64,000 nt of DNA from Isoetes taiwanensis (taxonomy: Eukaryota; Streptophyta; Lycopodiopsida; Isoetales; Isoetaceae): assembly GCA_021234155.1 (NCBI GenBank), contig JAJEKV010000002.1, positions 40,041,841 through 40,105,840 on the forward strand. Reading direction: 5' to 3'. The translations under genes were made by a program, and so were the position numbers. The notes below the pieces were generated by a model that saw only the letters and a program-made list of their open reading frames with translations, was not told where the DNA came from and made no database searches. Positions 13,291 to 64,000 of the stretch are shown piece by piece (the first letter of the stretch is position 1; every line of letters starts with the position of its first letter).

Positions 13291-13373
13291 AGCATCGTGG
13301 CCACAGTGCGAAAGATGCCGAAGTTTGTGTAGTCTTGTATTGTAGTTTCATACCATGGCCACGGTGCGATAAA
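13291..13373. repeat. Two copies of the GCACCGTGGCCACGGTGC palindrome
   Basis: Imperfect copies are at 13291-13312 (GCATCGTGGCCACAGTGCGA) and 13351-13371 (ACCATGGCCACGGTGCGAT). They are the leftmost members of the palindrome family that marks element A. Confidence 0.65.
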
Positions 13374-13837
13374 CCACCATATGAAAAACAAACAAGGCAA
13401 TCCATTTAACATTCTAAAACAAATAGATAGAATTATTCTACCCAAATACAACTATATAAAATCAGACTATTACAGTCAACTATTCAGATTCATCATCATC
13501 GTAAGGTGCTCCAGAGATCCTTTCTATTATGAACAACCCACTCTCTCGATTCTATATAAGGTGGATCACAATATCGAAGGGATCAGGATAATTGCGTGAA
13601 GGATTCATAGCAACAACGGTCAGCCAGTCTCAAGGACAACACGAAGCAGATGGCACGTATAGAGATCCCTATGATTCATACTGCACGTAATCTCATGAGC
13701 AAGCTCCATCCAGCTACAAAGAAAAGGCACAGGCCGAGACTATGCCCTCACCACTTGATGCATGTCTATTTATACCCATCATAATTATGATAGTATATAT
13801 GAACAATTATTGCCAGCATTATTGAGTATTTTCTATA

Positions 13838-13868
13838 TACTATCATATCATATCATATCATATCATAA
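13838..13868. repeat. ATATC pentanucleotide microsatellite
   Basis: About five consecutive TATCA/ATATC units lie just before the 270 bp tandem array. Confidence 0.8.
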
Positions 13869-13886
13869 CATATATATGTTCTTATG

Positions 13887-14690
13887 TTTGTAACGCTCAA
13901 TCCGGCCGTTGATCCAAGATCCTACGGCTCACGTGGCTTTGGGGCATATCGTACGGCCCAGATGGCTTGGGAGTTTGTTTGTACCTTATATGTAAGTTTG
14001 TTTGTAGCTTATATGTAAGCGATCCTACGGTCCAGGTTGATTTGATCCTGATCGTCGGTCCGAGATCCTACGGCTCACGTTGCTTTGGGACACATCCTAC
14101 GGTGCACATGGCTTTGGGAATTATATGTAATCGATCCTACGGTGAAGATTGATTATGTTTGTAACGCTCAATCCGGGCCGTTGATCCGAGATCCTACGAC
14201 TCACGTGGCTTTGGGGCATATCGTACGGCCCAGATGGCTTGGGAGTTTGTTTGTAGCTTATATGTAAGCGATCCTACGGTCCAAGTTGATTTGATCCTAA
14301 TCGTCGGTCCGAGATCCTACGGCTCACGTTGCTTTGGGACACATCCTACGGTGCACATGGCTTTGGGAATTATATGTAATCGATCCTACGGTCCAGGTTG
14401 ATTTGATCCTGGTCGTCGATCCAGGATCTTACGGCTCACATGGCTTGGCACATATCCTACGGTGCACATGGCTTTGGGATCTTATGGCTTATGTTGCATG
14501 AGATCTCGACCCTTGATTGGGTCCAAGATCCTACGGCCCAAGTTGAATGCTCATGCCTTAGGAAAATGCACATGACTTTGGGAATTATATGTAATAGTTC
14601 TTATGGCTTATGTTGCATGAGATCTCGACCCTTGATCGGGTCCAAGATCCTACGGCCCAAGTTGAATGCTCATGCCTTAGGAAAAAGCTT
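13887..14690. repeat. Tandem array (about 270 bp and about 117 bp units) built on GATCCTACGG
   Basis: The unit beginning TTTGTAACGCTCAATCCGGC at 13,887 recurs at 14,157, giving a period near 270 bp, followed by a partial third copy. Inside each unit the 10-mer GATCCTACGG recurs every 25-45 bp. The last part (14,476-14,690) holds two copies of a 117 bp unit containing GAGATCTCGACCCTTGAT. No coding frame persists across copies. Confidence 0.8.
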
Positions 14691-14699
14691 TTAAAATTT

Positions 14700-14775
14700 T
14701 TATGTTGTATGGAGGATTCGAACCCTAGCCATTAACCCTCCAACCCCCCATTCTAACCACTAGACCAAGCATTTA
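14700..14775 (-). other. tRNA-like sequence (tRNA-derived repeat)
   Basis: On the minus strand, TGGTCTAGTGGTTAGAA (D-arm and A-box type) is followed 35 bp later by GGGTTCGAATCCTCC (T-arm and B-box type). The two boxes have tRNA-like spacing, but the acceptor stems do not pair well. A SINE-type remnant or tRNA pseudogene is more likely than a working tRNA. Confidence 0.5.
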
Positions 14776-14859
14776 ATTCCATGAATACTTTATGTTTCAA
14801 ATATACTTAAGGGTAATGTTTCCATTAAGATAAAATAGACTATAACATTCTAGCTAGTT

Positions 14860-15560
14860 CAAGAAGGTTCTAATATGTTCTGGAAGGCTCTAGAAAGTTC
14901 TAGAATCTTCTAGAAAGTTCTAGAACATAAGAGAATCTAGGGGGATCTAAGAAAATTCTTCCAGAAAGTTCCAAGTTGTTCTAATAAGTTTTAGAATGTT
15001 CTAGAATGTAGGGGAATCTACAGGAATGTAAGGAAATCTAGGGAAATACTTCCAGAAAGTTCTAGAATATATTGAAAGTCTTAGAATGTTTCAGAAAGTC
15101 TTAGAATGTTCTAAAAAGTTCTAGAATGTAAAGGAATTCAGAAGAATCTAATAGAATGTAAGAAAATCTTATAAAATGTAAGAGAATCTAGGAAATATTT
15201 ACAAGCCTAAGGAAATCTCTTAAAATTTGGGGGATCTAAAGGAATCTTCATAAAATCTAAGGGAATCTAAGAAAATGTTGATGAAATCTTAGAGTATCTA
15301 AGGGAATCTTTGTAGAATCTCTTTGAATCTCATGTAATGTAAGGGAACCTAGGGCAATATCATAAAATCTAAATGAATCTAAAAGAATCTAAGGGGATCT
15401 TCATAGAATCTTGGAGAATCTAGGGAAATCTAATGGAATCTAGAGGGAATCTTATAAAATTTAGAGAAATGCTCACGAACCCTCTAAGAGAACCTTGGTA
15501 GAATCTTAGAGAATCTATGAATTTAGAGTATTCTCAAGAGATTCTTTTACAAGAACTTGC
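14860..15560. repeat. Degenerate short-period tract rich in TCTAGAA and GAATCTA
   Basis: For about 700 bp the sequence repeats variants of GTTCTAGAA and then AGAATCTAGGGGAATCT with a period of roughly 12-20 bp. It is a decayed minisatellite with no coding frame. TTCTAGAA resembles heat-shock element half-sites, but simple repetition explains it. Confidence 0.7.
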
Positions 15561-15628
15561 ACGTAGAAACATGCTAAAACTCGAACATGCACCGTAGGAC
15601 GCATTAAATTTCTTGTATGTATATATTG

Positions 15629-16230
15629 GCGCAGCTATTTTACTTAGCTTAGTATAATATATGTATTGGTTAACTTAATTGGTCAATTAGTTTCCACTGG
15701 TTGCTGTTGCCAATAGGTTTGCTTCCATTGTTGTTTGCGTTTGTCTATCGTTTATCCTCGAAAAATATCGCACCGTGGCCACGGTGCGAAACCCTCTTTG
15801 TTTCTGTAGGCGTATTAGATTTTTTCGCACTGTGGGGACGGCGCGATATATGCCATTGTATGTACACATTGGTGCAACTATTATACTTAGCTTAGTATAA
15901 TATGTGTATTGGTTAAGAACTTAATTGGTCAATTAGTTTCCACTGGTTGCAGTTGCCAATAGTTTTGGCTCCATTGTTGTTTCCTTTGTCTATCTTTTAT
16001 CCTCGAAAAATATCGCACCGTGGCCACGGTGCTAAACCCTCTTTGTTTCTGTAGGCGTATTAGATTTTTTCGCACCGTGGGACGGCGCGATATATGCCAC
16101 TGTATGTATACATTGGTGCAGCTATTATACTTAACTTAGTATAATATGTATATTGGTTAAGAACTTAATTGGTCAATTAGTTTCCACTGGTTGCAGTTGC
16201 CAATAGTTTTGCTTCCATTGTTGTTTGCTA
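15629..16230. repeat. Tandem 240 bp repeats, each carrying two palindromes
   Basis: The unit starting TTGGCGCAGCTATTTTACTT (15,629) recurs at 15,868 and, truncated, at 16,110. Each full unit has the palindrome CGCACCGTGGCCACGGTGCG (perfect 20-mer at 15,769-15,788; near-copy at 16,014-16,033) followed about 55 bp later by a second decayed copy (15,824-15,847; 16,068-16,092). A fourth partial unit is at 16,670-16,790 beside the ORFx gene. This ties the array to element A. Confidence 0.85.
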
Positions 16231-16440
16231 CATATTCTAAACGAGGTGCACCCTGGACTACCACAGTCGTCGGATCTGTCAATCCGACGGCCCAGACTGT
16301 ATGTTGGAGCCCCTGGACACCTCTCGTTTCGATTATGCTCAATTATGATTGGGGACGCCTATGATTTTAAGATGTCGAATACGAGTTTGCCTAAGGTTTT
16401 GATGGTATATCGAGCCTCTATACGGTTTCGCTTAAGCTTT

Positions 16441-16535
16441 TAGAATATGAAATACGGGGATTCGAACCTCTACCAAAATAACTCAATGTCCTAATCAGTC
16501 TACTTTAACCAATCTAACCAGTGAGCTAATGTGAC
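16441..16535 (-). other. tRNA-like sequence (tRNA-derived repeat)
   Basis: On the minus strand TTAGCTCACTGGTTAGA (A-box like) is followed by GAGGTTCGAATCCCCG (B-box like) at greater than normal spacing. It resembles the remnant at 14.7 kb in kind, though the sequences differ. It is probably a tRNA pseudogene or SINE piece inserted next to element A. Confidence 0.45.
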
Positions 16536-16669
16536 TATTTTTTATCTTAAATCTATGTTTTTTTTTATAATAACCCATTGAATTGTTTTAGGGATATGGT
16601 CTATGATTTCAAGAATTATATCTATATCAAATCCCCCTGGAACCCCTTGTTATTTTGCTACATATTTGC

Positions 16670-16790
16670 CTTTGTCTATCGTTTATCCTCGAAAAATATT
16701 GCACCGTGGCCACAGTGCGAAACTTTCTTTGTTTCTGTAGGTGTATTACATGTTTTCGCACCGTGGCCAAGGCGCGATATCTGCCACTTT
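16670..16790. repeat. Palindrome pair immediately upstream of ORFx (element A)
   Basis: GCACCGTGGCCACAGTGC at about 16,701-16,718 and CGCACCGTGGCCAAGGCGCG at 16,758-16,777 repeat the arrangement of the 240 bp units. They end about 110 bp before the ATG of ORFx. Confidence 0.75.
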
Positions 16791-16890
16791 TGGACACTTG
16801 AAATTGGTATTTCGCCCTATGACCTCGTAGTCACTTCGACAAAGGCGATCACAGTTTTTATTGCTTTAAACGAGGCGATACAATTCCGCA

Positions 16891-18389
16891 ATGGCAAGCG
16901 CCAGGTCAAAGAAGGTGTGGGGACGGTTTCAGGCATGGTATGATGAGATCGTTAGGAAGGAAACTGAGCATAGCCTATCACACCCAAAAGAGTTTGCTCA
17001 GCAACTTGGAAACCCTCTGGACACTACTGTAGTATATAATAACTTTTGCCTGATGGTGGATATAATATCTGAGGCGAATAAACACAGTGACGTTTATGGG
17101 CAGTACATTCAAAGCTTCATGACGGTGGTAGATGCTGAGAGTGTGAAGTCCTTTCTGAAGCTGTTTTCCAAAGGTGATCATGATAAGCTTCGAAGGTCGT
17201 TCAAGAGGCTACCTTCCAATTTATGTGAGATGGGAAGGATAATTTATATCCAATCGATATCATGTTTGCTACTTACATGATCTATTCGGTGCCACAAACA
17301 GATAGTGAGCAACCACAAGTGAGGGCTATTGCAGAATATTATTCACCTGTCGAGGAGCTTTTGATGCAGATAAAGAGAAGGAACTGGTGGAAAAACTAGA
17401 TGAGGACGATGATGAAGAGCAGGAAGATGAAGCCGCGCACGAAGATAAACTTGACAGATGGGAAATCACGGGAACACTGCCAATTAACGTGGGAGGGAAG
17501 GACTACCTGCTTCTCCACGATATATCTTCGGTCACTCGTTTGAGGGAAGACGAGGTCCTTGGACAGATCTATGTTTTTGTTGTAGGTTTAGACGACTTCA
17601 TCGACTTCGAGCCGGAGGTGCCAAGGGAGCTGAACGAAGCTTTAACTTATGTTGGAACTTCAGTAGCTCTGAAAATTGCATTTGATAGAGTCTTGGAGAT
17701 GTCAGAAATGGGCTTGAACGAAGTCTCAGAACTAAAGGTCGAGGGGAGTTGTTCAGGAGTTAAGGATACCGAAAAACTTGAATCAAAAGGGGAATCAAGC
17801 TCCTTCAGGTCTTCTATCAAGATTGCTACAAAAAAGGTTATTGAATCTGACGAAGTGGAGGTATGCTAGCTATAAAGTATCTATTAAGTTTGGTAGTCGG
17901 TTAAGTTGCAAATGAACTTTGCTTGCGTAGGAAGTTTTTGTTGACGATTATTGCGCCAGACATGATAGAGTCACCCTTGGCCAAGATGGAAGTATTGCAC
18001 ACTATATGGGCTACCTTCATAAGGGGGAAATTGTTGTGTTCCATTCCAAGTACAGCCCATTCGGACATGAGGAGGTTTTGAAACTGAAGGCCCTCTCGTT
18101 AATTGGTAGTCACCACCTGTTAGCTGCCAATTTTGATCGAGTGGTGGCTGTTAGGAGAGATATCGCCACCCATGTTTTTGGTGGGTTTAGTATGTATTCC
18201 GTCATTGCCAATAGAGCTGCATTGGCCTTGTCGGGGGTGGATAAAGCTACAATTCGACTGACTTGGGAAGAGAGGGAGCCACAGATTCCTCGTCTTATGT
18301 ACCTGTTGGATGCTGGTTTGCAGGAGTCCGACCTGGAAGAAGTTGATATTTTTGGTGATCTTCATATCTCTAAGAAAATGAAGTTGTAA
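16891..18389 (+). pseudogene. ORFx of element A: transposon protein of unknown family
   Basis: This is the same protein family as the frame at 58.6-60.2 kb. The centre reads INVGGKDYLLLHDI...LDDFIDFE here and IIVEGQEYLLLSDI...LDDFIDRE there. The C-terminal half shares VDDYCARH / VDEYAGRH and GEIVVFHSKYSPFG / GRIAVIHRKFSPRG. The start MASARSKKVWGRFQAW matches RRWYSAS in position. A 70 bp GT-AG intron fits at 17,861-17,930, joining DEVE to EVFVDDYCARH; the donor is GTATGC and the acceptor GCGTAG. Two frame changes (about 17,235 and 17,345) break the first exon, so this is a decayed copy. An acidic segment (KLDEDDDEEQEDE) separates two conserved blocks. No known domain is recognised. Palindromes lie on both sides. 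Confidence 0.6.
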
Positions 18390-18497
18390 CCAAGTTCAAT
18401 TAATGCAAAGACACTTCTTATATATCGTTATCATATTATTTGCAACATTCTCTTTAGTTTCAGTTTATTTTATTTTCACAGTTATGTTTTACTTCAT

Positions 18498-18630
18498 CAT
18501 CGCCACGGTGCGAAATATTAGTCATCAATGCTTGTATATGACAAATATTCGCACCGTGGCTATGGTGCGAACTGCTTCCATTTCCTTGTCTCTTGATTGC
18601 TTGTTTCGCATGATAGCAACGGTTTGTAAT
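18498..18630. repeat. Palindromes between ORFx and the H3-like gene (element A)
   Basis: There is a half copy (GCCACGGTGCGAAATA) near 18,503, a full imperfect copy (TTCGCACCGTGGCTATGGTGCGAA) at 18,547-18,570, and a very decayed one near 18,605. They fill the spacer between the ORFx stop (18,389) and the next ATG (18,732). TATATAGACA near 18,680 is a possible TATA box for that next gene. Confidence 0.65.
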
Positions 18631-19182: not shown

Positions 19183-20254
19183 TTTTTTAGAGGATGAGGT
19201 TTTTTCCATTAATTAATGAAAAAAGATACAATAGTGTTCATTGCCAATGCTAAGACATGACAATAGAACTGAAAATTGCAGTGAGTAATACATATATAAA
19301 ACTTGAATTAAAATCAAGTATAGCTGCTAACTGTGTGAGAATCTTGCTGCCATATGAAACTATAGTAATAGATTAACAAGACCTCCAGAGTATGATCTTT
19401 GCAAAGTAACCTGCTGAAGTCCACAAAAGTTAGGATAGATAGGCAAAAAGTAGGAACGGGAAATGTGCAAGGAAGAGAAGCTAGAGATTAAGGAGTTAGG
19501 AAATTAAAACTGATAGGAGTCAATGAAAGGGAAAAGAGCTGGATAATGAGGCTGAAGTATCAGAATGTGATTATTTTCCCAATTAAGTTCCTGAATTAGT
19601 GTGTCAGAGTTTGTAGTTGCCATGAGTAGGATAAGTGAGCCATAAGCATCAGCCATTCCTCTGTGGTAATAATAGCAACCCCTATAGAACTCGAACTGCA
19701 GATCAGTCATGTTGCTGCTAAATCTTTCCAGAAACCACCATAACTGATGCATCAGATAAGTGCCCCTACAAAATTCCATAGTCCAATCTATTTCTCTTTC
19801 AGGAATGTCCAATATATCAACATCTGTTTTGCCCCTGACTAACCCTGTCCAAAGACCCTCTGAATATTCAATGTCCTGATCAATCAACTGTTCTACATAA
19901 ATCTGAACCTCGGCTAGAAGATCAGCTCTGAGATTGTTCATATAATCTGATAGATAAAATATTTTTTATTCATCATGACAATGTAATCTAAATAAATTAT
20001 AAGGACCATTATGCACCCCTAAATTATTCCATCTTTCATCACAGTGATTCACTTTAGTATTTTTGTTATAAGTAGCAGACAGTTCTAGGTCATAAATGAT
20101 ATGCAATTTAATCCAGGTACAAGAAACTGAATGCTGGCCATACAAACATCTATTTCTATGTTTCCAGATATTCCACAATGCAATAAAGGATAAGGAATTT
20201 ATAAATGCATCATCATTTAAAAGGAAATTCAACAAAGAGGTAGGCTTAGAGATA
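19180..20254 (-). mobile_element. LINE, 3' part (continues at 24,949 beyond the nested Helitron)
   Basis: On the minus strand, the frame after the Helitron gap reads NISKPTSLLNFLLNDDAF and ALWNIWKHRNRCLYG, the Trp-rich segment that follows the zinc-binding region of plant LINE reverse transcriptases. It continues into a 145-residue C-terminal region (19,941-19,504) of unknown function. The element ends in an A-run (T-run on the plus strand at about 19,184-19,191), the 3' tail expected of LINE insertion. The tail touches the broken H3-like gene of element A. Confidence 0.7.
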
Positions 20255-24900: not shown

Positions 24901-24948
24901 ACAATAGAACCGTATTTATGCCCGGCAACGCCGGGCATCCGTTACTAG

Positions 24949-27055
24949 TTGAAATAATGTTCAAACCAGTTCCAAAAGGAGTAGAGCTTAATAAAAATAT
25001 GGTTCATATCCTCAATGTTGTTACAAAACAGGGGGCATTGAGAATCAATAGGAGCAACATTTCTGGCTTGATGTTTAGCAATTGAAACTAGATTAGGGAC
25101 ACTACCATTAGCAAGGAGCCAGATGAAATATTCAAACTTAGGAGTTAAATAAGAATTCCAAACATTATTGAATAGCTTAAACTCAATATCATCCGAAATA
25201 TTCCAGAAAGTCTTGGCCTTAGAAGCATTGCATGGTCTACTCAAGAATTTATATATTATGGAAACTTTGTATGCCCCTTTGTTATTAAGAGTCCAATCGT
25301 GCACAGAGTTTGGATTGGCCTCTAAATTATTGATCTTTTGCATTATGTGCCTGAATAATTTTCTATCAGAAAAGGTACCTCTTATTCTTTGCTTAAAGGC
25401 AGTCCAAGTGATCCATCTATTATTAACTCTGAGGTCACCTAAATTCAGAAAATTAAATTCACTCCGTTTTTTATAAATCCTTGGATGAATAGTAGCCAAA
25501 GAAGTTGAGCTGTTACTGGATAAAAGAGGGTTCCAAAATATACTTGTTCTGTGGTGACAGTTTTGAAGATCAATATGCTTGAAGGCTCTATGAGAGAAAT
25601 TCCAAGCAGAGATAATATTTCTCATAAGAGGAGGAGTGTTGGCACCAACCTGCAGATTAAAGAAAGCAGATGAAGGGAGATGATGCATTACAGAGGGATG
25701 CCCTTTAATATAACTGCAAGAAAGCCAATGCTTGATAAAGATGGAAGCAGGATTACTGGCTTGATATAGAGACCTCCAAACATATTTACCAGCCAGAGCA
25801 TACCCCTGTAGAAGAAGATTCTTACATCCAAGGCCACCCTGATTTTTGCTTCTGGATATTGATTTCCAATTAACTATATGGTGCTTCCCCCAAATGAAAT
25901 TCCTGATGATCCTTTCTAATTGTTGGTAGATGGACTTTGGAGCAAGAAGGGCAGATGAGAAATAAATATGAGAGCTTGCAATCGCAGTATTGGAAATAAT
26001 AGATCTACCAGCCAGAGATAAGCAACTGCCATAATTAGACAATTTCTTTTTAATTCGAGAGATGATAGGAGACCAAAGGCCTTTTATACCTGGATGGATA
26101 GAGGCATGCCTAGCAATTTGGTATATAATCAGTAGAAATATCACCAATAATAACACATTTGTCCCTGTTTAAATGAACTCCAGAAGCAGCATCGAAAGAA
26201 TCAATGATCTTGAAAAAGAACTCTATATTTTGAGAATCATTTTTGAGAAAAGTGAAAGTATCATCTGCATACTGAGAAACTGAGAGAGAGGAATTGTCAG
26301 GGAGAGTGAGACCATGCAGAGCATTAGAATTTTGATGAAAATGAATAGCACATATTAGCATTTCAGTAACTACAAGAAATAAGTATGGAGCTAGAGGACA
26401 CCCTTGTCTCACACCTCTGGCTAAAGAGAAGAATTTGGTAGGAGAACCATTAATGAGAACAGCAGATTCAGATCTTTGATTAAGCTCAATGATTAGCTTA
26501 ATAAGTTTATCAGAGAAACCAAGTTTAGTGAGAGCAAATTCCAGAAAATCCCACCTAACAGTATCAAAGGCTTTGGAGAAATCTAATTTAAGCAAAATAC
26601 AATTTTGCTTTGTCAAATTATTCCAGTGGAGGCCCTTTATGGCAGCAATATAGTTGTCAAAAATGTATCTGTTTGGTGGAAAAGCAGATTGGCTTGAGCT
26701 AATAACTTTCTGAAGATGACTTTTAATTCTGTTGGCAATTAGCTTAGCACAGATTTTGTAGGAGGTGTTGGTTAAGGAAATTGGCCTCCAATCATTAAAG
26801 ATAGCTGGATTATGCACTTTAGGAATCATAGTAATAAACCCAGAGCAAATAGAAGGATGTAAGTGATTAAGATTCCAATAACCATAGATCATCTGCATTA
26901 AATCCACTTTAAGAACTTCCCAGAATTTAATATAAAATTATGTAGGAAGGCCATCAGGCCCAGGGCTTTTATTTCTCCCAAGGTTGATGGCATCGTTAAC
27001 TCCAACAATAAGCACTTTGGATGCCTTAGTTAACGAGATAGATTTCATAACCAGG
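24949..27055 (-). mobile_element. LINE, reverse transcriptase part
   Basis: On the minus strand the first frame (26,907-26,110) is a LINE reverse transcriptase: NDWRPISLTN, LLKLDFSKAFDTVRWDFLE, GVRQGCPLAPYLF and the catalytic SQYADDT. Upstream, to 27,055, GRNKSPGPDGLP continues the domain with one stop. The second frame (26,156-24,949) carries the thumb and connection region and a zf-RVT-like end (CPLFCNNIEDMNHIFIKLYSFWNWFEHYFN region). It then meets the Helitron and resumes at 20,254. Frameshifts and stops make it inactive. The 5' end is truncated at about 27,055, next to the H3 fold. Confidence 0.85.
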
Positions 27056-27058
27056 CCC

Positions 27059-27715
27059 AATCAAAATGTGCAGGTGCTTGGTGCATTAGAAGGAGCAGGA
27101 ACTCAGTCAAAAATTGGGGATCATCAGGATATTCCGATTCAAGATATTCTTGTTTAGGCTATTCCGATTCAGGAAATTCCTGTTCAGGCTATTCCTATTC
27201 GGGATATTTCTATTCAGGATATTCCTATTCCAGATGCTGTTCTTAACATGTCCTGGATCCTCCGAATCAGACTAACGTTGAGGTGGGTAAAAGAAAATCA
27301 CGCGCGCCTAAGCAGGTGCAGAAGAAACAGGTGTTGTGTAAAGGCCCTTCGAAGCTCAACAAGAAGGGCGAACCGTTTAAGCCAAAGTACAGATGGATTC
27401 GTGAGATCCGGCACTTCCAGAATCACGTGAAGTGGGTACTTCCAAAGCTCACTATGGCGAGAATCTGTAGGGAGGAGATTCAGAACAGGTACGCGAAAAT
27501 GAAGGAGGATAGGAGGAGGTACCATGGTTCTGGCAGAGCTTTTCCAATGCCAGAAGAGGTTAATCGATTTACTGCAAATGCCCTTGATGCTCTGCCGCGG
27601 CTGAGAATCACATGGTCGAGTTTTTTGATGTGTGAAGTGTGCCGTGCATGAAAAGAGGGTGATGATCATGCAGAGGGATGTTGCTTTAACGAAATATTTT
27701 CGAGGCATGTAAAGT
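27059..27715 (+). pseudogene. H3-like protein of element A: linker and histone H3 fold
   Basis: After the LINE, a linker contains a repeated IPIQDI / IPVQAI hexapeptide, then basic KRKSRAPKQVQKK. The H3 fold follows: YRWIREIRHFQNHVKWVLPK (alpha-N and start of alpha-1; canonical H3 has REIR-YQ-STELLI-KLPF), ARICREEIQNRY, an enlarged loop of about 18 extra residues (KMKEDRRRYHGSGRAF), and ANALDAL. Two one-base frame slips lead to AAENHMVEFFDV (H3: EAAEAYLVGLFED) and VHEKRVMIMQRDVALTKYF (H3: IHAKRVTIMPKDIQLARRI). The fold is complete but frameshifted at about 27,597 and 27,640, with a further break near 27,245 and a TAG in the repeat. Palindromes follow the stop. Confidence 0.7.
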
Positions 27716-27835: not shown

Positions 27836-28170
27836 AAATTACGGTGCGAATATTAGCTATCCTATAATTAAACGACAACTTGTTTCGCATAAATGACAAC
27901 TTGTTTCGCACCGTGGCCACGGTGCGTAACAGGTTGTCGTTTAGTTATAGGATAACTAATAATCCTATAACTAAACAACAACCTGTTACGCACCGTTGCC
28001 ACGGTGTGAAATAAATCCTATAACTAAACGACAACCTGTTACGCACCATGGCCACGGTGCGAAATAAGTTGTTAATTAATTATAGAATAAATAATATTCG
28101 CGCCGTGGCCACGGTGCGAATTATTGACTAGTCATTACTGAATGCCAATATAATTCGCATCGTGCCCACG
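27836..28170. repeat. Cluster of five palindromes in a larger cruciform-like array
   Basis: A perfect CGCACCGTGGCCACGGTGCG lies at 27,907-27,926, with near copies at 27,989-28,008, 28,042-28,061, 28,099-28,118 and 28,151. The spacers are themselves inverted: CTATCCTATAATTAAACGAC before the first palindrome mirrors GTCGTTTAGTTATAGGATAA after it. Stems of about 60 bp are possible. The cluster starts about 120 bp after the H3-like frame. Confidence 0.85.
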
Positions 28171-52592: not shown

Positions 52593-54107
52593 TGTGACAT
52601 CCCCTACTCATATACGGTGCACTCACCGTATACAAACAGGAGTTCATATCCCATACCAGCTCCATGCTAATATAGGGCCCTCCAAGTATCACTGCAACCT
52701 TGAGATGGTCCAGTGGGAAGAATGAAGGGGCCATTTACCCTGTCTTCCTCAGGGCCTACCTAGCTGCGGAAGTGCAACATACATGTCAGTAGTACATACA
52801 TCAATAAAACATGACCACCATGAGGGGTGGCTCACCTCATATCTGCATAGACAAAGATCAGTACATCACATAAGGGAGTTCTACCCTGGCTCAGACACAG
52901 GGTTGGACTGACAAGCTTGGGTCTCCAGAGGTCAAGCAGACCGAGTGCAATAACAGTGGAGTTGGCTGGCAAAGGAACATGGCAGTTGGGTAGTCCGCTC
53001 CATCCGCCCCTCCTGTGCACACTTTGCAGAGTAGGTTGAAAAGTGTTGGGACTGGACTGTAGTCCGCCGGATGCATAGCCAAAGGGGTTATTCCTGGGTT
53101 GCATCTCCCCAGTTCTGATGGGGCAGGTAGGGATTTCTCCCACCAGAAGCTAGCATGCTGACTCAAGGCGACTAGAGGGCCACTGCCCTTACTCGACTGA
53201 ACTCCATGGAAGGTGTACACCACCCCAAGAGTGTCGAACCCATGCAACAGCCCGCACGCAGTGGCAGTGCATTAGATCTAGTGCGCTGAAGTCCTCGATA
53301 GGCCTTACTACCAGAGGGACAGTTCATGAATCAGGACATGAGCTTCCTTGTAAGCCAGTCTGGTCCCTCCACCCACAACCAGGTTTGGTTCTTGTACACA
53401 GGCCGAATATTAGTAGCACACTAAAGGGACTAGCTAGGAGCATTAACTACTAGGCTTGTAGGCCTCTACCCCCCTTCCCAATACAATGAGTCCACAGAGA
53501 TCATCCATACATCCATATCATCAAAGAACTAAAGAATAATATCTAATCTACATCATAGAAGTTAGGTTCTTTAGTTAGGGCTCGCTATCTAGGGTTCTAT
53601 GTGGCTGCTATGGGTAATTCAATAGGCTAAACATGCTAATTCTATGCCCAGAAGGCGGATTAGGCTATTGAATTGACGAAATACCTGATCCGTGGCTTGC
53701 TCCTCCTGCTCAAAATGCGTCCATGTCGCTGTCTTGCCTGGAGATGCAGTCGGAAAGGAAATAATACGAGCTAGGGCGCTCAGGCAGATCTTGGAAGTCG
53801 GGATTGACTCTTGAAGCGCGCAAAAAGGAGCTCGGAAGGACTGTGGACGAAAAGGGAAAGTTAGGGTTTGGTTGCCTTACACAGGTTATCAGTTAGGGTT
53901 AGGGTTTCCATGACCCTTGGTATGCCTCTTAATGGTTAATGGTCTAAAGTGCACACATTAATAAGTGTGCACATTCTTGCAAGTTGCCCCTTAGGGCGCC
54001 ACTTGCTTGGCTACACGTCGGCGTACACGTCAATTGCGAAGGCGTGTACGCGTGACAGTGCAGTACGGTATACGTCTTGAGACTGTATATCGTACTGGAA
54101 CGTCACA
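52593..54107 (-). mobile_element. 3' LTR of the chromovirus (element B)
   Basis: Read on the minus strand the segment starts TGTGACGTTCC, directly after a polypurine tract, and ends GGGATGTCACA. The 11 bp ends are inverted with two mismatches, and the ends are TG...CA. A length of 1,515 bp is plausible for a Ty3/gypsy LTR. The 5' LTR lies outside the window, so the two LTRs cannot be compared. Internal short hairpins include ATACGGTGCACTCACCGTAT near the distal end. Confidence 0.65.
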
Positions 54108-54937: not shown

Positions 54938-55690
54938 ATCTACACAACCATCGACATGCCTGCGTCGATTTCTTCGGAGATCCCATTGCTCCATGAATTC
55001 CGGGTACTGCCTTATAAGGTCCTGCTTAAGTACCCACGTTGCGTCTTCCACTGGCAAGTGTTTCCACTTGACCAAGTATTGGAGAATTCTGATCTCCTTG
55101 TTTCCTTGATTGCTTTATCAAGGATTAAGTCTGGGACTATCTCTAGCTGCTCTTCTGTCATTTCCAACAATGTTGGTGTGTCCAAGACTTCTTCTGGGTT
55201 TGGAGTATGCTTCTTCAACAGACTCACGTGGAAGACCTTATGAATTTTCAGGTGTGCTGGCAGGTCTAACTTGTAGGATTGATTACCTACTCTCTTGTCT
55301 ATTCTGAAAGGACCCGCCCACCTTGGAGCAAGCTTCTTGCAATTTCCGATGCAGAGCTTTGCTTGTTTCACTTTGATCTTGAGCCAAACATTGTCGCCAA
55401 CCTCAAACTCTCTGACTATTCGGTGCTTGTCGACGATGCTCTTTTGTCGACTCCTTGTTGCAAGAAGATATCCTCGAACCTCTTCCACCAGCTGCTGCAT
55501 GTCGGCCAACATTTGCTGCGAAACCTCTACTTTTGACACAGGATTGTGCCAAGTGTCTGGGGTTAGGCATTGGTAGCCGTAGTTGATCATGAACGACGAC
55601 ATTTGGGATGATTCCTGCTTGGTGCTATTATAAGCGAACTCCACCAAGTGAATAAACTCTTCCCCTGCTTGTTCCAGACATAGTTTCGTA
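54938..55690 (-). pseudogene. Integrase C-terminus and chromodomain (element B)
   Basis: The minus-strand frame from about 55,690 carries EFAYNSTKQESSQMSSFMIN, VGDNVWLKIK, KLAPRWAGPFRI and HVSLLKKH, the C-terminal part of Ty3/gypsy integrases. A one-base slip near 55,090 then leads to a chromodomain: ILQYLVKWKHLPVEDATWV followed by RQYPEF, ending about 54,938. Chromodomains of chromoviruses bind modified histone H3 and steer integration to heterochromatin. Here the three aromatic/hydrophobic strand residues and WKHLPVEDATW helix start are recognisable. Confidence 0.8.
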
Positions 55691-56648
55691 GCATATCTTC
55701 CAAAATTCTGTTGGTCCGTTCCATTTGCCCATCCGTCTGAGGATGATAGGCCGTGCTCATTGACAATTTCGTCTGAATTGTCGCAAAAAGATCTTGCCAA
55801 AAGGCACTCATGAACTTCGGGTCTCTGTCGGAGATGATCTCTCTCGGCATGCCATGGAGCCTGAAGATTTCTTTGGTAAAGAGCTTTGCTGTATCCATAG
55901 CTGTGTCTGTGGTCCTGCAAGGCACAAAATATGCCATCTTCGACAACTTGTCGACCACGACCATCAAGGCATCCTTCCCTCTTACTGTCCTTGGAAGCCC
56001 TGTTATGAAGTCCATGCTGATGACCTCCCACTTAGCGTTTGGCACCGCTAATAGTTCCAATGCTCCGGGAATTCGAAGCTGCTCTGCCTTTGTTTGTTGA
56101 CACAACTGGCACTCCTTGATGTAGCGAGCTATCTGCTTCTTCATGCCTGGCCAGTAATAACTGTTTCGGATTTTGAAGTATGTCTTCATGGATCCCGCAT
56201 GGCCAGCTATTGGGCTGTTGTGGGTGTCGTGAAGAATCAACTTCCTCACTCCTGATGACTCCGGCACGCACAACTTATTCTTGTGGTATAAGAGGTTACC
56301 TTCCTTCTTGAAATTCTTGAAGGTCTCCCTCTCCTTGTCTATTCTTGCTTCTTTGCACAAGCTCGCCCATACTTCCTTGAAATCTGCATCTGTTGGCAAG
56401 GTTTCTTCAATCTTCCTTCCGAAATCGCTGGTGAGCATGGAGATTGCATTGCAATGGACTCTTGTTGTCAGGGGGTGCCTTGAAAGTGCATCTGCTACCA
56501 CATTGAGCTTCTCCGACTTATAGACTATGTCGAAGTCGTATTCTTCGAGGAACTCCATCCACCTTCTTTGCCTCAGGTTGAGGTGTGGTTGCGTGAATAT
56601 GTATTGGAGACTCTGATGGTCTGTGTCAAGTCGGAACTTTCTTCCCAA
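55587..56648 (-). pseudogene. Integrase core (element B pol)
   Basis: Starts in RNase H (KFRLDTDHQSLQYI, LRQRRWMEFLEEYDF). The integrase zinc finger follows (HDTHNSPIAGHAGSMKTYFK ... CQLCQQ, HHCC). The DDE core follows: VISMDFITGL (D), REIISDRDPKFMSAF (D), and AYHPQTDGQMERTNRILEDM (E). All three acidic residues are present. The frame shifts near 55,650 into the C-terminal part. Confidence 0.9.
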
Positions 56649-57649
56649 CAGGTAGTGCCTCTAAATCCGTAGTGCCCTGACAACTGCAAGCAGCTCTTGA
56701 TCATGGGTCGGGTAGCGTGTTTCGGCGTCGTTCATCTTTCGTGAATCATATGCTATCACTCACTCCTCCTGCATCAATACTGCGCCTGTAGCAATTTTAC
56801 TTGCATCCGTTGCTACCAGCTTGTCCTTCTCGGGGTCTGCAAGGTTAGGATGGGTGCGGTTGTCAAAGCTTCCTTCAACAAATCGAATCCCGCTTGGGCT
56901 TTCTTCCGCCAGTGCTCCGCCCAATCTTTCACCTTTTTCGCCTTTGTCAAATCTGTTAGCGGGGCTGCTATCTTTGCAAAGTTCTTCACGAACTTCCTAT
57001 AGTACCCTGCTAGGCCGATAAAGCTTCTGACCTCATGGATGTTCTTTGGCGCCGGCCATTGTATCACTGCTTCGATCTTGGCAGGGTCTGTTGAAATTCC
57101 CTCCGCTGAGATCACATGCCCCAGGTAGTCCACTCTCTCCGTTGCGAAGTGACACTTTGACAACTTCGCGTACAACTGGTGCCTTCTCAGCTTTTCCAGC
57201 ACTTTTCTTAGGTGTTGTACATGTTCTTCTAGGGATTTACTGTATACTAGGATATCGTCAAAGAATACTATGACGAATGCGTCTAGGAACTCCCTGAAGA
57301 TGTCGTTCATGAGTCTCATGAACGTTGCTGGGGCGTTTGACAATCCAAACGGCATCAGGGTGAACTCGTAATGCCCATATCGGGTTCTGATTGCAGTCTT
57401 GTGGACGTCCTCTTCCTTGATCCTCATCTGATGGTACCCTGACCTCAGGTCTATCTTGGAGAATACCTTTGCACCTTGAAGTTGATCCATCAGGTCGTCT
57501 GATCTTGGGAGAGCATACTTGTTCTTGATGGTGTGCTTGTTTAGCTGCCTGTAATCTATGCACATCCTCAAGCTACCATCCTCAAGCTCTAGGGCTGTAG
57601 CTGCCCGATGCTTGGCCCTTGTCTTTGTAGTATTGCTGCTTCGGCCCAC
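56649..57649 (-). pseudogene. Reverse transcriptase and RNase H start (element B pol)
   Basis: The RT frame reads [53 protein letters not shown] and the catalytic FFDDILVYS, then the connection ([17 protein letters not shown]). A frame slip near 56,835 and two stops in RNase H (after LMQEE near 56,764 and within ALRI*RHYL near 56,660, each where Trp is expected) disable it. The N-terminal RT motifs, the protease and the gag zinc knuckle are missing: gag sequence runs directly into EDGSLRMC at about 57,590, an internal deletion. Confidence 0.9.
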
Positions 57650-58565
57650 TGTTTGGAGGCCCAGATCCTTGCAGGCTGACGGCCTTTGATTCTGCCTCTG
57701 AGACTGTTCGAGGGTTGATTGCCCTCACCAGCTTCCTTATTTCGTCATTCAGCCCTTCAATGTATCCTTCGACTGCATGCCGTTCACTTTGCTTTGGCAC
57801 ATACAGCCTCAGCCTCATGAATTCTTCCGTGTATTTCTGCACGGACTTATTCCCTTGCTCCAGCCTATAGAACTGTTGCATCATGTGGCATTTGTTCTCT
57901 CTTGGCACATAGTGTCGCTTAAATGCCTTTGAAAATTTCTGAAAGCTACAGCTGTCTCGGCTTAGCTTGTGCGACTTGGCATACCCTTTCCACCATATGC
58001 GAGCTGCCCCCTTGAGGTTTGCTGTGGCCACCTTGCCCTTGTCCTTGTCTTTCATTCCGTAGGCATTGCCATATTCATTCATTTCGTCTAGCCATGCCTC
58101 TGCCTCCATACCTGACCTATTGTCGCCCGAGAACTGCTCGAGCTTCCTTGCCTTCCACCTGAATGCGAAATCTACCTTCTTTTGATAATCCGAGGCCCCT
58201 GCTGCCCTGAGCCTGCCCTCTCTGTGGTCTTCCACTTCTTCTTCCTCGGAGTCGGAGTCCGATTTTGAGCTGGTGTCAGAGGTGTCTGTGCTAGGAGACC
58301 TCCTTCTCTTGCTCCTCTTCTTATCTTTCCCCGACTTTCGAGGTGGTGTTTGCGGCCCTTGAGCGTTGTTATCCTGCCCGACTGATGCTTGTGCTGCCAG
58401 TAGGGCTTTAATTTGTTGAAGTTTCGACTTCATCTGTGACACTTCTTCTTCTGGGGTTAGAGAGCCATATTCCTCGAACAGGATCCTTGCAATGGGTTGC
58501 CTGTCCGGGGTCTGTTCATCTCTATTGGCTCTCCTGTCTTGTTCGACTGTTTTTTGATCTCTAGC
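57582..58565 (-). pseudogene. Gag (element B)
   Basis: The retrotransposon gag domain is visible: FAFRWKARKLEQFSGDNRSG, MEAEAWLDEMNEYGNAY, AARIWWKGYAKSHKLSRDSC, FKRHYVPRENKCHMMQQFYR, LEQGNKSVQKYTEEFMRL and YIEGLNDEIRKLV. The N-terminus has Ser/Glu-rich and KDKKRSKRRR stretches. The frame is open upstream of the first good Met (58,442) to about 58,560, where ATATGCAG|CTAGAGATC looks like a splice acceptor. The C-terminal CCHC knuckle is deleted. Confidence 0.85.
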
Positions 58566-58643
58566 TGCATATCAACAAAACATTTAAAAATACCAACAAA
58601 ATATATTCATATATGTAATAGCTTAATTACAACACTACCGGGA

Positions 58644-60267: not shown

Positions 60268-60278
60268 CTATTTATAGA
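60268..60278 (-). promoter_or_regulatory. TATA-like box of ORFx (element B)
   Basis: TCTATAAATAG on the minus strand, 106 bp before the ORFx ATG. The same 11-mer precedes the H3-tail ORF at nearly the same distance. Confidence 0.5.
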
Positions 60279-60473
60279 CAAGGGAAAAAAAAACCTAATT
60301 TTTGGATAGGTTGAAACAATCTTGGTGATGGGTGATTCTTTCCTATCTTGAGGTCAAAATTGAGATTTGGAAGCTACTTTGAGGTTTTGTGTATGACTAG
60401 GATGGTCTAATGAACCTATTGCAACAAACTAGAGGTCAATTGGGTGTTGGATAAAAGAGAAATTGCTAGAAGG

Positions 60474-60540
60474 TCTCACACGTTGCGCCTGGGGCTCGAC
60501 CTAAAATTTAGGTTTGGCTTCTGGCGCGACGTGTGAGACA
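60474..60540. repeat. Hairpin 1 of element B (32 bp imperfect arms)
   Basis: TCTCACACGTTGCGCC ... ACCTAAA faces TTTAGGT ... GGCGCGACGTGTGAGA. About 25 of 32 positions pair. The apex ACCTAAAATTTAGGT is itself palindromic. Confidence 0.85.
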
Positions 60541-60675
60541 TTGGGCCTATCTTGGTCAAAACTTGTCCAATCTGGGAGAACTAAGGGTCTACTCATGCTA
60601 GTCTCATCGAGTGGGTAGGATGGACCCCTTACTTGGTTGATTTGAAGCTGTTTTGGTCTAGTTTAGCTATGAAGG

Positions 60676-60740
60676 TCTCACACGTTGCGCCTGGGCCTCG
60701 ACCTAAAATTTAGGTTTGGCCTCTGGCGCGACGTGTGAGA
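60676..60740. repeat. Hairpin 2 of element B
   Basis: Close copy of hairpin 1 in the same orientation, 200 bp away, with CTGGGCCTCG replacing CTGGGGCTCG. Both lie between the H3-fold ORF and ORFx. Confidence 0.85.
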
Positions 60741-60884
60741 CATTCCTCACTACTTGCTCTAATTATGTCCAATTTTACTAAAACAAAGAGCAGTTCTTCC
60801 TAATTCGACCTAACTAACATGAATTATGCACTTATAACTCAAACAAAACACTTTGTATTAAACAAAATTTTATCATTTACAAAA

Positions 60885-61414
60885 TTAGTAAGGCTCTCCT
60901 TTGATATGACTGGCCAAGTGCATATCTTTCCTCATTAAGGTTACTCTTTTTGCGTGTACCGTGCATGCTGTTGCGACTTCAAAATGCTGCACGAGTTTCT
61001 GCTCCGCTGCTTCTTGTAGGGCTAGCAGCATCTCACCTGTTACCCTCATCTCGGTGCTATATTCTTGGACAACTTCTTTTACTAGTCTGGCGAAGGGAGC
61101 ACGGGGGATAAGGAAGCCGAAACTCCTCTGGAAGTGCCGGATCTCCCTTATTGCTCGATTCAGCTTCGACTGGGCTTTCCTCTTCGGCGGCTTCTTTGGA
61201 GGTTTGGGCTTCTCTGACGGTGGCTTTAGGGTCTGCTTCTTCGATGGCCGTCCACCTTCGACAATTCTGACCCTATTCTCCTGGCAATAGGAGTTATAGG
61301 CCTCCCATTTCTTCATGAACTCAGTGTGCTCCTTCAGCTTCCTCTGGTGGACCCTGATAGGTCTATCACGTATGATTCCTGGGCAGGTCGCAATGCTTTC
61401 TTTCTATCCCAAGT
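60885..61414 (-). pseudogene. Histone H3-fold protein (element B)
   Basis: The Met-initiated frame (61,316-60,885, 143 residues) has a basic Pro/Lys linker (SEKPKPPKKPPKRKAQSK) and then a full H3 core: AIREIRHFQRSFGFLIPRA (alpha-N), PFARLVKEVVQEY (alpha-1), GEMLLALQEAAEQKLVQHFE (alpha-2), TACTVHAKRVTLMRKDMHLA and SHIKGE (alpha-3 and C-terminus). Canonical H3 has REIR, PFQRLVREI, ALQEASEAYLVGLFED and [24 protein letters not shown], so this is unmistakably H3 and complete to the end. The frame stays open upstream to 61,414 and overlaps the H3-tail frame. Joining them needs a -1 shift between 61,414 and 61,336. That could be an indel or programmed slippage; the overlap starts at an AAAGAAA run. 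Confidence 0.85.
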
Positions 61415-62134
61415 CGGGTAAGGCGGGGGCGCCTGCACCTGCTGTGGCTGCTCTTGGTCTTGTGCTCCCTGCTCGTCACCTGGGGGCTTGGAAGAACTTC
61501 CTTCTTGATGATGAGGGTTGTAATCCTCATCATCCGATTCATCCGAGGAGGATGGGGGCTGGTCTGCTGGTCGTTCTTGAATGACAACCTTTGTTAAAGG
61601 AGTCTTCTTTAGTCTTCTCTTGGGCTGCTCCACGCCTTTGCCCTTGAGCTTCTTCTTCAATTCGGCCTCCTTTACTTCCTTTTCCTCCCTCTTCCTCTTT
61701 TTCTCCGTCTTTTTCTTCTCTCGGTGCCTTAACTTGACTTCATGCATCCTGATCCAGGCCTCGAGCTGTTCTTCTTCTGTTGGCTTTGGATTTGGCTCCC
61801 TCTGTTCTTCTGCCTCCTTGGCTTCTCGCTCCCGTTCTGCTCTCTTCTCGTCTTGTATTTCTCGCTCTATCTGTTCATACACCTCTTGAGTTTCTTCATC
61901 CATTGAGGCCGGAGATGTAATGTCTTCTTCCTCGTCCAGCTGCTGGTTGACGATGCCAATCAGCTCGGATGTATCTTGCTGCTGCTCCTCTGGGATGCTC
62001 TCCTCGCTTGAAGATGGTCGTCCTCCTCTCGCAATGAGTCTCTCCCGAAGCATCTGCTGTATAAGGCTAGCGTCCTGGGCACTGGGGGTTTTGCCTAGTC
62101 GGGGTTTCCTGGCAATCTGTTTGGTTCTGGCCAT
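61334..62134 (-). pseudogene. H3-tail-like protein with long charged linker (element B)
   Basis: Starts MARTKQIARKPRLGKTP. Histone H3 starts ARTKQTARKSTGGKAP after the Met, so K4 and K9 and their flanks (ARTKQ, ARK) are kept while T6 and S10 differ. About 200 residues of acidic and then Lys/Glu coiled sequence follow (ERAEREREAKEAEEQ-like, KKTEKKRKREEKEVKEAELK), then SSDESDDEDYN and a Pro/Gln-rich part (PQQVQAPPPYP) to the stop at 61,334. In the overlapping -1 frame the H3 fold follows at once, so the original product was probably one giant H3 of about 430 residues, three times normal. The frame itself is intact for 266 codons. Confidence 0.75.
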
Positions 62135-62248: not shown

Positions 62249-62259
62249 CTATTTATAGA
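62249..62259 (-). promoter_or_regulatory. TATA-like box of the H3-tail ORF (element B)
   Basis: TCTATAAATAG on the minus strand, 115 bp before the ATG at 62,134. Identical to the box in front of ORFx. Confidence 0.5.
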
Positions 62260-62358: not shown

Positions 62359-62421
62359 GTCTCACACGTTGCACTGGAGCCCCGAGCTAATAATTAGATC
62401 GAGCCTCCGGTGCATTGTGTA
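62359..62421. repeat. Hairpin 3 of element B
   Basis: TCTCACACGTTGCACTGGAG and CCCCGAGCTAATAA face TTAGATCGAGCCTCCGGTGC and ATTGTGTA. It is a diverged member of the hairpin family, about 100 bp upstream of the H3-tail TATA box. A fourth left arm (TGTCTCACACGATG at 62,567-62,580) is cut by the copia LTR. Confidence 0.7.
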
Positions 62422-62581
62422 CATTGTTCATTTTTTACTAAACTTTATGATTTCTAGACATATTCTTCGGGGTATAACATACAAATCTAGCTAGTTCTTA
62501 GCTTAAAACTCGATCTGGCATGTTAACTTGTTAAGATTCATCAAGTATTAAGGTGATTTTGAGCTGATGTCTCACACGATG

Positions 62582-63024
62582 TGTTAGAAAATGTGGTATC
62601 ATCACATGTGTGGAATTCAAGCTGTACATTTAGAGTACATTGATATACATTAGATACATTGATGTACATTAGAGTACATTGGAAGTACATATGTACATCT
62701 CTGGCCTTTGGCCTTCTGTTTCCGGCTGTTGGCCCTTCAGTGCCATACAGAACATTAATGTATAAATAGTGGAACTCTGTGCAATGGAGAACACGAGGGA
62801 CAGAGATCAAGGTCGAGATCGACTGGTAATGAAGAATTCATCTTGATAGTTTCCTTTCTGTATTGATATTGTTGAGCTCGAGTATGAGTTAACGGTTTAA
62901 ACATGTCATTGAACTTATTCGCTCATACAATAACTAGTGGTTGTGTATCTAGTGGTTGATCATTTTATCTTGATCATTGATTGAATACTTGCAAGTGTTG
63001 ATATAGTGATACATAAAATTAACA
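62582..63024 (+). mobile_element. 5' LTR of a Ty1/copia retrotransposon
   Basis: Begins TGTTAGAAAATGTGG and ends AATTAACA (TG...CA, 443 bp), followed two bases later by the primer binding site. It contains a GTACATT-rich microsatellite (62,625-62,700) and a TATA-like TATAAATAGTGG at 62,760. The LTR is inserted within the arm of a hairpin of element B, so it is younger than B. Confidence 0.85.
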
Positions 63025-63026
63025 TT

Positions 63027-63038
63027 TGGTATCAGAGC
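63027..63038 (+). promoter_or_regulatory. Primer binding site for initiator tRNA-Met
   Basis: TGGTATCAGAGC is the standard plant PBS complementary to the 3' end of tRNA-iMet, directly after the LTR. Confidence 0.9.
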
Positions 63039-63061
63039 CACCTTGCAGTTGACATTAAATC

Positions 63062-64000
63062 ATGTCAAGCCGTTTTGGAGCAAGTCTACTGAGTACAGTA
63101 GAGGTGTATAAAGGAGGACCTGGGTTTCAGGTGTGGAAGGATGCTATCAAGCATATTTTGGAGGTAGAAGAGTTATGGGATCTTGTTGATCCACTAGGAG
63201 CAGGAGTAGCACGACCGGTGCGAAAATGTTACACCGGCAAGGTCAAGTAATTTGGTTCCCCAAACACTCGAAGTTTTCTTTGCGGTACGGGATCTCGCAG
63301 TACAACCTCCTGGAGGAACTTACGGGTACAAAGAGCAGTGGTGGAGGTAGATCCGGTCATGCAAGACAAATGGAGGCACAAGGCATTATCACTGTAAGGT
63401 TAGTGCCACTATAAGATTGAAGCTTCGAGAAATAAAAATGCCAAAGAGATGTGGATTTTCTTGCTCAAACATTATGAAGAGAAAAGCTCACCATAAATTG
63501 ACCTATTAGAGAATGAGTTAAGGAAGCTAAAATTGAAGGAAGAAAATGATGTTTCAGACTTCTTTAACAATTTTGATAATATTGTAGCAGACCTAAGTGG
63601 TGCAGGGGTAAATCTAACTGAAAGATATCAAGTGTTAGCTATTGCTAGATCTGTTAGTGAAAATGAGCAACTTGCAATGTTCATAAGAAACATGGCTAAA
63701 AATAGGGAGGAAGCAGAAAATATCATAAGGACTGAGGCAGAACAAAAGAAAATGCTAAAGGGTGACGATGATGAGGCTGCAGAAATTCTCTTTGCTGGAA
63801 AAAGGAACAAAGAAACATGTTTTTACTGTCATGAACCTGGTCACTATAAGAATGCATGCCCAAAATTGAAAAAAGAATTCCATTGCTTCAATTGTGGAGG
63901 AAAGGGGCATTCAGCAGCCAAATGTCCAACTCCAAAAGATTATGGAAGAGGGAAAAGTGGCCCTAGCAGAAGGGGAGGCAGAAATCCAAGCACAAATCAA
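63062..64000 (+). pseudogene. Ty1/copia gag, continues past the window end
   Basis: Starts MSSRFGASLLSTVEVYKGGP, with FQVWKDAIKHILEVEELWDL (copia gag N-terminus). One or more frame breaks follow (63,240-63,420), then NAKEMWIFLLKHYEEKSSP, a TAA where a Gln codon is expected (near 63,494), and an open frame to the end: LENELRKLKLKEENDVSDFF, and two CCHC zinc knuckles (CFYCHEPGHYKNAC and CFNCGGKGHSAAKC). Protease, integrase and RT lie beyond the window. The copy is inactive in gag. Confidence 0.85.

Follow-up and report, generated by a model that had tools for sequence, protein, structure and literature searches.

It has been reported that some fungal mobile elements carry histone H3-like genes: hAT elements of Pyrenophora (H3L) and Pseudocercospora each hold one, that of Pyrenophora together with an open reading frame (ORF) of unknown function (accessible parts of PMC3538342 and PMC6710886). 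Plant Ty3/gypsy elements may contain forward ORFs in their 5' part before the polyprotein (eORF-5'F, and ORF0 of Retrosat2), mostly of unknown kind; the domains named in the accessible parts of these papers are the plant mobile domain, Transposase_28 and Athila ORF-1, with no histone among them (PMC6317226, PMC3485330). Additional captured ORFs, namely DEDDy- and GDSL-type ORF3s, were described for long terminal repeat (LTR) retrotransposons of bdelloid rotifers, and the word 'histone' is absent from the main text of that paper as far as it is accessible (PMC5408684). Single H3 genes, some with lengthened tails, also occur outside host chromosomes, in the DNA genomes of viruses (PMC9145170, accessible part). 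'Histone' does not appear in the main text of PMC13317346, a 2026 review on how plant elements capture genes, and among the papers listed by searches of open-licence PubMed Central, titles and abstract openings showed no histone gene in a plant or LTR element. Here we describe an H3-like gene (H3A) and a second gene, of a family without known relatives (gene 2A), which lie before the gag frame of a Ty3/gypsy chromodomain element, in a stretch of 64,000 nucleotides from Isoetes taiwanensis (contig JAJEKV010000002.1, positions 40,041,841 to 40,105,840, forward strand; the window). Unlike the fungal cases, which are DNA transposons, H3A stands in a plant retroelement context and has a fold resembling centromeric H3 (CENH3) and a very long tail. 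With a little less than even credence, we regard H3A and gene 2A as accessory genes carried before gag by a large, broken element of this type.

H3A consists of two overlapping minus-strand frames, which lie where the initial annotation had placed them (Table 1). The N-terminal frame begins MARTKQIARKPRLG and opens with the annotated tail signature MARTKQIARK; Ser10 is replaced by Pro, as had been seen before, and Thr6 in addition by Ile. No Pfam match at E<=1 was found for this frame, and 0 of 1715 candidates reached E<=0.001 in a protein search; a stop-free stretch of its 266 codons was absent from 2000 Markov-resampled sequences of the region, where the largest was 246. The C-terminal frame contains the complete H3 fold that had been proposed, from an H3-type alpha-N helix to alpha-3. 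The Pfam check suggested for it gave PF00125 at E=4e-26 (92.1 bits where the cut-off is 26.4; residues 26-138 of 143), and solved H3 chains in the PDB matched at E about 6e-24 over 125 residues. With a custom H3 profile, made of 120 matches and H3A itself (121 rows) so that the scores of H3A and its relative H3B lean slightly on H3A, this frame reached 169.7 bits, the best value in 20 resampled windows (45805 frames) being 7.6 bits. A structure model of this frame built on a 24-row alignment has five predicted helices, of which the first (17-46) belongs to the tail and the others (79-92, 102-113, 116-152 and 157-166) make up the fold, and with a mean pLDDT of 71 and a pTM of 0.34 it is consistent with a histone fold at moderate confidence.

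When the two frames are joined, a product of about 415 residues results, with the alpha-N helix at about residue 329 and a tail of about 325; the initial figures of about 430 residues for the product and about 250 for the linker were thus corrected, as about 320 residues lie between the tail tip and the helix. Tails among the best 120 of 467 proteins matching the fold at E<=0.001, which are used in all class counts below, had a median length of 51 and did not exceed 125 residues (helix placeable in 114 of 120), in a search that itself limited protein length. The idea that such a giant tail is exceptional is weakened: of the cenH3 tails cited in PMC9145170 (accessible part), one has 170 residues and another, in Dictyostelium, more than 520, and tail length alone is therefore not unique to H3A. 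The copy is broken by one frame step within the frame overlap (61334-61403), for which a simple indel of the kind seen in gene 2A and pol would be the likelier cause. A programmed -1 frameshift was also considered at the junction and rejected, there being no in-frame X-XXY-YYZ heptamer nearby. An intron there could be drawn from 91 fitting GT-AG pairs, hence that test says little.

Despite the break, the frame is almost open over 415 codons. In a rough simulation of neutral drift to 57% fold identity, a stop-free frame of this length was kept in 0 of 400 runs (median 9 stops, smallest 3), therefore the lineage seems to have been under selection for much of its divergence, either in the host before capture or in the element. 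H3A also keeps 23 of 28 columns invariant in 23 relatives and 10 of 16 nearly invariant ones, the stretch before alpha-N not being kept. These results bear on the possibility that the element took up host H3 (and gene 2) sequence as a passenger and copied it without use, like the hAT elements with H3 in fungi (PMC3538342, PMC6710886; accessible parts). That precedent and the broken state of H3A would agree with passenger capture, to which we nevertheless give little credence: it fits poorly with the long divergence of an almost open frame, with a TATA-like box of H3A's own and with the presence of the association in two far-diverged loci described below.

H3A is accompanied on the same strand by gene 2A, a broken copy which sits between H3A and gag and is absent from the initial annotation. 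A 330-aa piece of it is 50% identical over 95% to a 501-aa protein (P0121; E=2.9e-91), the sole match at E<=0.001 among 3139 candidates, and this protein is unbroken and encoded on a contig of 2007 nt (source tag lgn). Because of this likeness, gene 2 is taken to be a real family with an unbroken member elsewhere. Gene 2 matched nothing in Pfam (E<=10), NCBIfam (above cut-off) or PHROGs (E<=1), and it does not resemble gag; its best PDB match (E=0.55) is not credible, and its AlphaFold model (mean pLDDT 39.7) is unusable. H3A and gene 2A each have a TATA-like TATAAATAG box and upstream palindromes (Table 1). This motif has 4 sites in the window with 0.95 expected, and 1 of 100 shuffles reaches 4.

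Both genes recur, far diverged, at a second place in the window (locus B), which is additional to the initial annotation. A decayed H3-like fold (H3B) lies 33 kb from H3A; its two pieces scored 33.2 and 24.0 bits with the custom profile, against 7.6 for the best resampled control, and PF00125 was reached under the cut-off (E=0.014). Loop 1 of H3B is about 20 aa longer, and it carries a CENH3-like EVNRFTANALDAL, near the EVNRWTAEAL of some plant CENH3-class matches. A diverged gene 2 relative (gene 2B) with at least two frame losses lies about 9 kb from H3B with a LINE in between, so that the locus-B copies are 33-43 kb from those of locus A. Gene 2B has an intron which is missing from gene 2A, as expected if the line of locus A went through spliced RNA. 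Palindromes of one family, CGCACCGTGGCCACGGTGCG, are confined to 13.3-18.6 and 27.9-28.1 kb, with 11 sites in the window and 0 in 100 shuffles; of four such stretches folded (z -7.24, -2.14, -7.74 and -3.65), one strong (-7.24) and one weak (-2.14) lie behind H3B. Since both genes recur diverged and each locus has its own palindrome family, the association of H3 and gene 2 looks old, and finding both at two loci so far diverged speaks for a lasting unit.

At locus A, gag, reverse transcriptase (RT), integrase and chromodomain follow in this order on one strand, as in a Ty3/gypsy chromovirus; the copy is truncated or defective, and decayed. No protease match was found in the ORFs scanned. The stop of gene 2A (58644) lies about 70 bp before the opening of the gag frame (58571), on the same strand and with no LTR between. 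The gag frame opens without an ATG right behind a T-rich stretch ending ...GATATGCAG (58571-58600, minus strand; GCAG), by eye a possible splice acceptor, which suggests a spliced gag mRNA. With a 266-codon frame and a family of about 500 codons, H3A and gene 2A would fit in length and strand an extra ORF in front of gag (at least 250 codons, between 5' LTR and gag), no 5' LTR being found in the window. The initial annotation had let the element make the H3. We find element-borne H3A likelier because of the partner gene, the near run of gene 2A into gag, the third-position GC content resembling that of gag-pol, and the recurrence of both genes; the copy at hand is broken. On these sequence features, H3A and gene 2A are likely to be part of the element.

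Third-position GC is 0.55-0.58 for H3A, 0.43-0.62 for the gene 2A pieces and 0.51-0.61 for gag, RT and integrase; one gene 2A piece (0.43) stands in between, as the comparators gave 0.37-0.38 (two host genes), 0.32 (a DUF4283 ORF), 0.30 (the LINE) and 0.28 (a copia element). It was considered whether the loci are decayed duplicates of a fast-evolving host H3 or CENH3 variant and of an unrelated host gene, near transposons by chance. Hosts can have long cenH3 tails (PMC9145170, accessible part), and the window holds ordinary host genes, a lectin kinase and a DYW-PPR gene, whose families point to a land plant as the probable host. We consider host duplicates quite unlikely in view of two H3-like and two gene-2 loci, far diverged within 64 kb and each locus with its own palindromes, a third-position GC that differs from both host genes measured, the lack of any visible intron in H3A and gene 2A, and no named plant protein returned by protein searches with the H3A tail and gene 2A.

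Several observations weigh against carriage of the two genes by the Ty3/gypsy element. Self-BLAST of the window revealed neither a 5' LTR nor a partner for the putative 3' LTR, and no tRNA-Met-type primer site, the one type tried, was found on the strand of the element. H3A as it stands would yield a full protein only through an intron or a frameshift, and it has lost 5 of the 28 invariant and 6 of the 16 nearly invariant columns. The gene order differs, being H3 then gene 2 at locus A and gene 2 then H3 at locus B; gene 2B has a third-position GC of 0.45-0.49, between element and host values; and locus B shows no relative of gag, integrase or chromodomain at E<=0.1 (tblastn). Outside 52-64 kb, queries with gag, RT, integrase, chromodomain and the tail gave one RT-like trace (E=0.003) and matches at E 0.4-0.8. 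The trace, at 10714-10797 (plus strand; PRSD...LQG), comprises 28 residues, 46% identical to the element of locus A.

Locus B, with both genes and a palindrome family and no clear gag-pol, could mean that H3 and gene 2 form a separate element or an endogenous virus with intergenic palindromes, and that the chromovirus is a neighbour inserted beside or into it, its 5' end lost. The TATA-like boxes and upstream palindromes belonging to each gene at locus A would fit such a unit, as would the intron of gene 2B and the existence of viruses with single H3s and lengthened tails (PMC9145170, accessible part). We hold this possible but doubtful. Apart from gag-pol, the 9 ORFs scanned at locus A showed no viral hallmark, and neither a transposase nor a hAT domain; gene 2A and gag are joined so closely that an LTR could have been lost between them only by an exact deletion; and viral contigs, scanned with H3A, its tail, gene 2A and P0121 in a way that detects close relatives only, gave no confirmed relative. 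The same scans for close relatives, with pattern matches at most, led us to drop a giant-virus origin as a candidate.

As to the origin of H3A, none of the matches listed is more than 57% identical to it in the fold, the four best being two plant CENH3-class and two RWQ-class rows. Classes were set by a loop-1 motif, and the mean fold identity of H3A was 0.549 to plant CENH3 (n=15), 0.541 to RWQ (47), 0.521 to canonical (34) and 0.503 to other H3s (24). The motif RVTLM, present in H3A, occurs in 12 of 15 plant CENH3-class rows, 16 of 47 RWQ, 3 of 24 other and none of 34 canonical ones. M[RQ]KD, likewise present, is found in 11/15 of the CENH3 class and in one row each of the canonical (1/34), RWQ (1/47) and other (1/24) classes; RxTxE occurs in 12/15 against 0/105 of the rest, a signature which is partly circular with the loop-1 class motif. 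All six CENH3 signature patterns tried are present in H3A; two of them, LIP and APF, are frequent in the other class as well (14/24 and 15/24). In a tree of 57 of the 121 rows, with 16 plant CENH3-class rows of which one (Papaver) was moved in by hand, H3A grouped with the plant CENH3 class at a support of 95/94, and in a 49-row tree at 99/94; its terminal branch is long (1.5).

On the other side, an AU test left the groupings of H3A with canonical H3 (p=0.27) and with the RWQ class (p=0.087) unrejected, and when the loop-1 columns were removed H3A joined two canonical-class rows at 96/87. Loop 1 of H3A is of canonical length in the alignment, where CENH3 has a longer one, and the tip ARTKQxARK occurs in 10/34 canonical and 7/24 other rows, compared with 0/47 RWQ and 0/15 plant CENH3-class rows. 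Compared with plant CENH3 (HTR12), H3A thus shares a fold identity of 55% on average and up to 57% with the 15 CENH3-class matches listed, and LIPxAPF-, RVTLM-, M[RQ]KD- and RxTxE-type residues; it differs by a loop 1 that lacks one residue relative to the aligned plant matches, by a tail tip like that of canonical H3, by a tail of about 325 residues, and by the end GEPY where several of the matches end in the RPW/QPW type. With canonical H3 it shares the ARTKQxARK tip, the loop-1 length and most core residues (class mean identity 52%), and it lacks RPGTVAL before alpha-N, RFQS and MPKD, its tail being about eight times longer. Because signatures and trees conflict with the AU test, the loop-1 removal and the tail tip, H3A is best worded as CENH3-like in its fold and canonical-like in its tail tip, and the tree does not settle descent. 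The initial term 'H3 mimic' should give way to this wording. H3A most likely derives from a plant H3, centromeric H3 being favoured, and capture of a canonical H3 is weakened by the signatures and the trees.

The chromodomain lies, as first annotated, in a neighbouring element, on the same strand behind H3A. Among solved structures it is closest to 'Chromo domain protein 1' (2dy8), which we take to be yeast Chd1. Type I chromodomains, the H3K9me readers, have three aromatic cage residues, at positions which we presume from HP1; the locus-A domain keeps Trp alone of the three in our own alignment, with the first site read in another frame. Integrase chromodomains are stated in general to recognise H3K9 methylation (PMC12477314, accessible part), and plant type II chromodomains without such cage residues are described as having no identified partner (PMC6317226, accessible part). 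The annotated role as a reader of methylated H3 agrees with the general view of these domains, and with two of three cage residues apparently missing it is doubtful for this one. Self-marked chromatin, a decoy for silencing and packaging of element DNA, as proposed in the initial annotation, are conjectural roles. Chromodomain gypsy elements as such occur in ferns (PMC2864245, accessible part).

Further features surround the two loci (Table 1). A Ty1/copia element with a perfect tRNA-Met primer site (63027-63038) lies upstream of H3A, and its 5' LTR sits, by eye, inside an apparent fourth palindrome upstream of H3A; the Ty3/gypsy element probably continues beyond this insertion and the window end. 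At locus B, tandem and segmental repeats (13882-16788, plus strand) are 75-93% alike, several of them containing the palindromes of that locus. A short ORF, MEAKSSATTRSN..., lies behind gene 2B (18732-18914, plus strand) after a palindrome and a TATA-like stretch, and is possibly the start of H3B severed by the LINE insertion. A 145-aa ORF convergent to gene 2B (19504-19941, minus strand) matches nothing in Pfam (E<=0.01) or NCBIfam (E<=1) and may be an additional gene of the locus-B unit.

Table 1 Features of the two loci in the window (position 1 is the first nucleotide of the window)
Feature	Position	Strand	Basis or remark
H3A, N-terminal frame: MARTKQIARK as H3 tail tip, followed by a low-complexity acidic and basic tail	61334..62134	-	266 aa
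H3A, C-terminal frame: tail end and complete H3 histone fold	60885..61403 (ATG form 60885-61316, 143 aa)	-	PF00125
TATA-like TATAAATAG upstream of H3A	62249..62257	-	motif scan
Imperfect palindrome upstream of H3A TATA	62359..62420		folding z -4.35
Gene 2A, broken member of a protein family of ~500 aa	58644..60162	-	frame loss near 59960, stop near 59638
TATA-like TATAAATAG upstream of gene 2A	60268..60276	-	motif scan
Palindrome upstream of gene 2A	60473..60539		folding z -7.11
Palindrome between the two genes, at 202 bp from the preceding one	60675..60741		folding z -8.07
gag frame, open upstream of first ATG	57585..58571	-	PF03732 E=7e-18, PF19259 E=1e-16 (ORF 57582-58442)
Reverse transcriptase frame	56816..57724	-	PF00078 E=2e-38 (ORF 56813-57649)
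RNase H / integrase frames, broken	55015..56660	-	PF17921 E=4e-20, PF00665 E=2e-10, PF24626 E=4e-21
Chromodomain, frame differing from integrase end	54938..55114	-	PF00385 E=2.9e-9; PDB 2dy8 E=1.7e-5
Candidate 3' LTR TGTGAC...GTCACA behind purine-rich stretch	52593..54107	-	by eye; no partner LTR in window
Ty1/copia element	62578-63991	+	LTR by eye at about 62578-63024; zinc-knuckle gag from 63533; runs off window
H3B, decayed H3-like fold	27247..27709	+	tblastn E=2e-5 and 0.008 (locus-A proteins against window)
Gene 2B, diverged gene 2 relative	16891..18389	+	tblastn 36-37% identity, E=8.6e-12 and 2e-7
Gene 2B intron, GT-AG, 70 nt, phase 0	17861-17930	+	missing from gene 2A and P0121 (alignment)
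LINE-type reverse transcriptase between gene 2B and preserved end of H3B	24945-26907	-	PF00078 in 26110-26907
Palindromes CGCACCGTGGCCACGGTGCG (<=3 mismatches) around gene 2B	13291..18569		7 of 11 window sites
Same CGCACCGTGGCCACGGTGCG palindrome family directly behind H3B	27907..28118		4 of 11 window sites

If H3A and gene 2A belong to the Ty3/gypsy element, its 5' LTR would lie outside the window, past the nested copia insertion, and an intact copy would transcribe the H3-like gene from its own TATA promoter. The protein, descended from plant H3 and most likely from centromeric H3, with a tail of about 325 residues starting with the H3 tail tip, might pair with host H4 and form variant nucleosomes on element DNA or at the insertion site. 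Its tail may recruit or bypass host chromatin factors, by which a tolerated, possibly centromere-like insertion site would be favoured. Gene 2, which accompanies H3A, may serve as a chaperone, structural or targeting partner. The furthest-reaching reading, which we regard as unlikely on present evidence, is that a plant retroelement lineage encodes its own giant-tailed centromeric-type H3 and a dedicated partner and builds CENH3-like or decoy chromatin on its own DNA or landing site, a private centromere or chromatin toolkit that has persisted into far-diverged versions in one genome. One group of studies reportedly deals with integration through CENH3 chromatin in Arabidopsis. Retroelements are described as reading chromatin through chromodomains (PMC12477314, accessible part). 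If the proposed reading is true, an element supplying its own nucleosome part with a CENH3-like histone would make the co-evolution of elements and centromeres directly testable.

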